DNA from: Gemmatimonadota bacterium
GTDB lineage: Bacteria > Gemmatimonadota > Gemmatimonadetes > Gemmatimonadales > GWC2-71-9
Length of the DNA stretch: 34,193 nucleotides
Reading direction: 5' to 3'
NCBI GenBank assembly: GCA_003223415.1
Contig: QHUY01000018.1
Location: 1 to 34,193 of the forward strand
Shown: positions 32,944 through 34,193 of the stretch, piece by piece
Position numbering within the stretch: position 1 is the first letter of the stretch
How the letters are laid out: each line of letters opens with the position of its first letter
Translations under genes and position numbers: made by a program
The notes under the pieces: model-generated
The model's database searches: none
Seen by the model: only the letters and a program-made list of their open reading frames with translations
What the model was told of the DNA's origin: nothing

Positions 32944-33243
32944 TTAAAAGGCGGCGACCGCCTCCTCGGGAGTCTTCATGATCGAAAACAGGGTGTCGAG
33001 CTTGGTGAGCTCGAAGAGGGTCTGGAGATCCTCGTTGAGGCCGGCGAGGCGCAGGTCCCCCCCCTGCTCGCGGATCTTCTTGGACAGCGAGACGAGCACG
33101 CCCAGTCCCGAGGAGTCGATGTAGCCGGTGCGGGTGAAGTCGATGACGAACTTCTTCGCGCCGCCTTCGAGGGCGTCGAGGACCTTCTGCTTCAGCTCCT
33201 GGCGGTTCCCGACGATCAGCTGTCCGTCGACGCTCACGATCAC
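32944..33243 (-). other. STAS domain, anti-sigma factor antagonist (RsbV/SpoIIAA-like)
   Basis: About 99 residues from a possible GTG at 33243: [35 protein letters not shown] with the phosphorylatable serine in DSSG, then [22 protein letters not shown]. This is the substrate of an RsbW-like kinase, whose gene follows after 15 bases. Usual family members have about ten more N-terminal residues, which would fall inside the adjacent C run. If the C run is wrong, this is a separate gene and completes the STAS-RsbW-RsbU trio. Confidence 0.8.
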
Positions 33244-34193
33244 GACCCCCCCCCCCCCCCCCCCCCCCCCCCCCCCCCCCCCCCATGCCTGCTCCTCCGC
33301 TTGTAGGACGGCCACGGCAGCAGTCTCCACAATATCGTCCGCGGTGGCGCCCCGCGACAGGTCGGAGACGGGGCGCGCCAGCCCTTGCAGGATCGGCCCG
33401 AGCGCGGTCCAGCCGCCCAGCCGTTGCACCAGCTTGTAAGCGATGTTGCCGCAGTCCAAGTCCGGGAAGACGAGCACGTTGGCGGCGCCACCCACCGGGG
33501 AGCCCGGCGCTTTGCGGCGCGCCACGTCCGGCACGAGGGCCGCGTCGCCCTGGAGCTCGCCGTCGGCCCGCACGTCGGCGGCGAGCCGGCGGAAGGCGGC
33601 GAGGGCGGCGCGCACGCGCTCCACCTCCGGCCCGGCCGCGCTGCCCTTGGTGCTGTAGGAGAGGAACGCGACCACAGGTTCGTCCCCCACGATGCGTCGG
33701 CGGTCGCGCACGGCCGCGAGCGCGATTTGCGCCAGCTGCTCCGCCGTCGGCGTGGGCACCACGGCGCAGTCGGTGAAGGTGAGGACGGTGTCGCCCTTCA
33801 CCATGTAGAACGACCCGCTGACGAGCGCGATGCCCGGCGCCGTCCCGACGGCCCACAGTGCGGCGCGGATGGTGTCGGCGGTGGGGAAGTTGGCGCCGCC
33901 CACCATCACGTCGGCGGCGCCGATCCCCACCAGGCAGGCGCCGAACGTTAGAGGATGCCCCAGCGCATCCGCCGCCGCGGAGTCCGTGGGGAATTTGTCG
34001 GGCCGGCGGGCTCGGAGATGACGGATACAAGCCGGGAAACGGGAATCGGGAAACGGCCCCGCCCCACTCCCCCCCAATACCTCCACGACCCCGAGCCGCT
34101 CGGCCTGGATGCGGCGCGCCGCTTCCTGGACGCGGGGATCGTCGCCCTCGGGCAAGACGATCCGCCGATTCGCCCCCCCCCCCCCCCCCCCCC
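32944..34193 (-). CDS. pta: phosphate acetyltransferase, apparently fused to a STAS domain (5' partial)
   Basis: One open frame. Its N-terminal part is the PTA_PTB domain of phosphotransacetylase (acetyl-CoA + Pi to acetyl-P): [20 protein letters not shown], then [29 protein letters not shown] and [18 protein letters not shown]. It extends past the window edge into a C run. It ends as usual near [10 protein letters not shown], about 290 residues in, then continues through 12 glycines (39-base C run) into a STAS domain. The fusion may be real, or the C run may hide an intergenic region with the pta stop and STAS start. A three-unit GGGAAAC/GGGAATC array lies in the variable loop after the first strand. 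Confidence 0.75.
33246..33284. repeat. 39-base C tract between pta and STAS regions
   Basis: Thirty-nine consecutive Cs. On the coding strand they give 12 glycines and keep the frame between pta and STAS. Its length is the least reliable part of the window. Confidence 0.85.
34034..34054. repeat. heptanucleotide array GGGAAAC/GGGAATC x3 inside pta
   Basis: GGGAAAC, GGGAATC and GGGAAAC head to tail; 21 bases equal seven codons, so the frame of pta is kept. They encode part of [12 protein letters not shown] in a variable loop. No inverted partner array is visible nearby. Confidence 0.85.
34173..34193. repeat. C tract of at least 21 bases at the window edge
   Basis: The window ends inside a C run. 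It lies directly upstream of the conserved NRRIVLPEG start region of pta, where about ten ordinary N-terminal residues would be expected. The sequence may have stopped here because the run could not be assembled. Confidence 0.85.

Follow-up and report, generated by a model that had tools for sequence, protein, structure and literature searches.

The systems closest to the locus described here are the stand-alone phosphate acetyltransferases (Pta; PF01515), for which solved enzymes are available (PDB codes 6iow, 8fir and 1qzt), and the partner-switching modules of the RsbV-RsbW-RsbU (SpoIIAA-SpoIIAB-SpoIIE) type. The nearest published connection of acetyl phosphate with partner switching that we encountered is the Mycobacterium smegmatis SigF switch with RsfSR; there, acetyl phosphate serves in vitro as phosphoryl donor for the phosphatase RsfR, with a receiver domain as the acceptor, and makes the dephosphorylation of RsfB slower (PMC10950880). 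Among the matches listed by a search of literature titles, with most subscription papers outside its scope, none was devoted to fused Pta-STAS proteins or to an operon of pta with rsb genes.

The window, a stretch of 34,193 nucleotides from a Gemmatimonadota genome, contains an uninterrupted reading frame in which a Pta domain runs into a STAS domain through poly-glycine. A preliminary description had taken this frame as a possible fusion protein, and had itself suspected a hidden gene boundary beneath the C-run that encodes the glycines. Our analysis indicates that there is almost certainly no Pta-STAS fusion protein, and that separate pta and rsbV-like genes had C's written over their boundary by a sequencing or assembly error.

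The gene block and its components

The genes are tightly packed in the order coaD - pta - rsbV (STAS) - rsbW (HATPase_c_2) - rsbU (GAF, SpoIIE) - ksgA, where the names coaD and ksgA were read from the sequences and not from a family scan. As in other Rsb partner-switching modules, the genes for the STAS antagonist, the HATPase_c_2 kinase and the GAF-SpoIIE phosphatase were found together, in a row on one strand (Table 1). The block differs from the RsbV-RsbW-RsbU type in that no adjoining sigma gene was seen and in that pta and coaD lie upstream; unlike the phosphatase of the RsfSR system, the one encoded here combines GAF and SpoIIE domains and has no receiver domain.

The pta match passes the curated PF01515 cut-off of 24 bits and extends over profile positions 14-319 of 319. 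It shares the GPILQG / DLSRG region with the solved enzymes. In contrast to these, its 5' end is missing in the assembly, and the part near residues 35-57 is shortened and repeat-like (34030-34060, with units like CGGGAATCGGGAAACGG) and aligns poorly. The 5' end is lost in a C-run and an N gap, and the stop codon in the 39-C run. Position 34193 of the window is not the contig end; 91 N follow, then coaD, and the scaffold reaches 40,894 bases.

Table 1. Positions of genes and C-runs at the pta-rsbVWU locus (window coordinates).
Feature	Position	Strand	Basis or remark
rsbU-like phosphatase gene (GAF + SpoIIE)	30848..32476	-	PF07228, 134.3 bits; PF13492
rsbW-like kinase/anti-sigma gene (HATPase_c_2), 151 aa	32473..32928	-	PF13581, 93.8 bits
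rsbV-like STAS gene, 100 aa + stop, minus the first ten codons after Met	32944..33246	-	PF01740, 75.8 bits
39-C run, read as assembly artefact	33246..33284		alignment with seven relatives
ATG matching the relatives' STAS start codon	33284..33286	-	shifted by one base relative to the remaining STAS frame
pta (phosphate acetyltransferase), 296 codons present	33286..34173	-	PF01515, 306.1 bits
21-C run at the 5' end of pta	34173..34193		abuts the 91-N scaffold gap just past the window

The boundary between pta and the STAS gene

The 39-base C-run and the frame that joins pta to STAS were both borne out. The frame (32944-34155, minus strand) comprises 403 aa when counted from a TTG and remains open at the window edge. 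It spans PTA_PTB (PF01515, 293.7 bits) and STAS (PF01740, 74.1 bits), but solely by way of the run. The length of the run is divisible by three, so that the pta-side and STAS-side frames can meet.

A search with the STAS protein, with an E-value limit of 0.001, found matches in 99 of 101 genomes, the window's own genome counted in, and the neighbourhoods of 80 of the best matches were taken. In 74 of these loci, pta is the gene directly upstream of the STAS gene and shares its strand (the pta of one, L170, is just 25% identical), and all 80 have rsbW-like and rsbU-like genes after the STAS gene. None of the 74 junctions is fused; the pta frame never continues through STAS and in every case ends before or just within the STAS gene. 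The two genes share a 4-base ATGA overlap at 22 junctions and other overlaps at four (1 base in three cases, 20 bases in one), while 43 are spaced by 0-40 nt and five by more than 40 nt. A second set of 80 named loci, mostly from metagenome-assembled Gemmatimonadota and sharing 21 loci with the first set by a 200-base test, gave the same picture: pta lies within 800 nt in 70 loci, with no fusion among these. A further eight have no pta within this distance (one with ~500 bases upstream, one with pta ~820 nt off), and two have too little upstream sequence.

The nearest relative of the window genome, G010 (96% identity in one comparison and 98% in another), allows the boundary to be compared base by base. 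Here the pta stop codon TGA overlaps the STAS start codon (ATGA), ten ordinary codons follow, and the stretch matching the window then resumes. The window keeps the tail of pta and the ATG (33286-33284), and from the next base onward consists of G's on the coding strand. An alignment with seven relatives places ~37 of these G's where the relatives have 30 bases. Because the run is thus ~seven bases longer than the sequence it replaces, the ATG does not share a reading frame with the remaining STAS codons. The run has overwritten the final base of pta's stop codon together with the ten codons that follow the STAS Met, and at the join the STAS domain lacks these same ten codons. Where the run borders STAS, G010 carries five native G's, or five C's on the plus strand, which implies that the plus-strand C's begin at a short native C-tract and replace what comes after it.

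In view of the ATGA at the homologous place in G010, the doubt voiced in the preliminary description about a gene boundary under the C-run proves to have been right. Its remarks that pta ends where family members end and that the STAS domain lacks its usual first residues likewise agree with the relatives, in which pta ends at the same place and the ten codons are present. The poly-glycine-linked protein, on the other hand, has to be given up.

We favour separate genes on the following grounds: the unfused junctions in both sets of relatives, the replacement of conserved codons by G's, the 80 runs of 13 or more in this genome, the C-run that abuts the 91 N, and a 61-C run and a 19-C run that stand where relatives have ordinary or mixed sequence (see below). 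The organism's own DNA presumably resembles that of its relatives at the boundary, with pta and the rsbV-like STAS gene head to tail, most likely with the TGA inside a 4-base ATGA overlap. The error would have begun at the native short C-tract and turned the next ~30 bases into ~37 C's, across which the two reading frames would have joined by chance. The roles of Pta, RsbV, RsbW and RsbU are established for their families. By similarity to the solved enzymes, the Pta most likely works by itself, converting acetyl-CoA and acetyl phosphate into each other. The STAS protein most likely acts as RsbV, being phosphorylated by RsbW and dephosphorylated by the GAF-SpoIIE protein RsbU, and in its unphosphorylated form would free a sigma factor. 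This reading disposes of a spurious fusion gene that might otherwise be taken for a new type of metabolic input to a sigma switch.

C-runs across the assembly and competing explanations

Runs of this kind are not confined to the boundary. Nine-C matches number 66 in the window, compared with 1.4 expected, and are thus far more frequent than chance. In the whole genome, 80 runs match a non-C base followed by thirteen C's and 73 match the mirrored pattern, so that at least 7 runs must be followed directly, on the 3' side, by N or by the end of a contig. Among 100 relatives, the number of C-runs of 13 or more reaches a maximum of 16 (G057), and G010 has none. A sample of 20 own-genome stretches (362,735 bases), biased in that most were picked for holding runs, contains eight N gaps, four of which have a C- or G-run of nine or more within 30 bases. 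Three runs touch an N gap (contigs C63, C265 and C218), with the same polarity in all; one of them is the window's own end. Where a 61-C run stands elsewhere in the genome, eight of eight relatives have ordinary sequence. A 19-C run in pheT (24560-24578) adds glycines at a place where eight relatives have short mixed sequence, and is probably the same artefact.

A codon-usage frame test around 30 of the 80 runs gave 13 confident calls, of which one (L081) was left out as its right flank is N. Six of the remaining 12 runs, the 39-C run among them, are in frame and six are shifted, a split not expected of genuine glycine linkers, although 12 runs are a small sample. The cause of the runs may lie in chemistry or software. 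Two-colour poly-G read tails were not adopted as this cause; they would leave contigs ending in G when read outwards, whereas the contigs here end in C.

Not every observation sits comfortably with an artefact: the joined frames would be open by chance in just 1/3 of cases, and the pheT run and several others stay in frame (6/12), as real tracts might. A genuine Pta-polyGly-STAS protein coupling acetyl-phosphate metabolism to the anti-sigma switch could account for the single open frame with both Pfam domains and for the membership of pta and STAS in one gene row. We nevertheless regard it as highly improbable, given that neither set of relatives holds a fused junction, that the linker takes the place of conserved codons of STAS, whose ATG ends up in another frame, and that such runs are an oddity throughout the assembly. 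The runs might instead be real, as dozens of slippage-prone poly-G/C tracts subject to phase variation, with the 39-C run toggling pta-rsbV. Phase-variable poly-G tracts are known from other bacteria, 80 runs of 13 or more occur in this one genome, and the 39-C run sits on a native five-base tract. However, a tract that merely lengthened would have left its neighbours in place, and here ordinary sequence is replaced, both at the 39-C run (~30 bases) and at the 61-C run. Runs also meet N gaps in three places with one polarity and hit housekeeping genes such as pheT, and the nearest relative is free of them; phase variation is therefore disfavoured and very unlikely.

The least credible explanation in our estimate is a chimeric contig, in which the C-run joins unrelated loci and pta does not truly lie beside the STAS gene. 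Poly-C ends could conceivably act as false overlaps. This is refuted by synteny, unless the species rearranged exactly there, as the coaD-pta-STAS-rsbW-rsbU-ksgA order recurs in relatives. Of the 68 loci in which the sequence reaches far enough upstream of the pta match, 66 have coaD no more than 400 nt away, and the other two have it at 420 and 445 nt; ksgA is found downstream of rsbU in all 71 loci with sufficient sequence there. The assembly should be flagged: glycine- or proline-run 'linkers', frameshifts and fusions on C/G-runs of 13 or more deserve distrust.

Conservation of the neighbourhood and a possible metabolic input

Gene order and the 4-base overlaps fit the earlier placement of pta and the switch genes in the same operon, but no fusion is needed for that. 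In 298 genomes sampled from the phylum, STAS relatives were found in 272 and pta relatives in 286 (E 1e-18 or better, with pta-domain paralogues lumped). The two matches also adjoin in members of the class that do not belong to the order, for example G104, G117, G130, G133 and G184 (coordinates compared by eye), and are separated by several hundred bases or more in some others, such as G109, G275, G295 and G307. An unfused pta is kept immediately upstream of, and often overlapping, rsbVWU through much of the Gemmatimonadota class, and many of these genomes show no acetate kinase. This enzyme was found in 27 of 101 genomes; none was found in the window's own genome, the assembly of which is 97.5% complete.

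Conservation of the pta-rsbV adjacency does not exceed that of coaD-pta or rsbU-ksgA. As the whole block, including coaD and ksgA, is conserved, the position of pta is weak evidence for a functional link. The case from adjacency alone is further weakened by six of the 80 loci, in which rsbVWU occurs without pta although more than 4 kb of upstream sequence is present. A metabolic input into the switch would accordingly be at best a weak proposal drawn from gene order. It seems doubtful, if conceivable, that Pta, by setting acetyl phosphate or CoA status, tunes the sigma switch, for instance via the GAF domain of RsbU. The conserved pta-rsbVWU neighbourhood nonetheless offers a modest lead on inputs to stress switches in little-studied soil Gemmatimonadota.

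The genome has a second PTA_PTB match (genome G000, contig C192, locus L001), which sits behind an apparent malic-enzyme fragment in another frame. It was rejected as a second stand-alone Pta, the preceding frame being a malic-enzyme fragment as judged by eye, and the gene that holds it may also be broken in this assembly. Short repeats with units like GCGGAATGCGGA form three clusters in the window (27872-27970, 29288-29380 and 30524-30650). Two orientations face each other in each cluster, and one cluster lies inside the ksgA frame, to which it adds odd residues.
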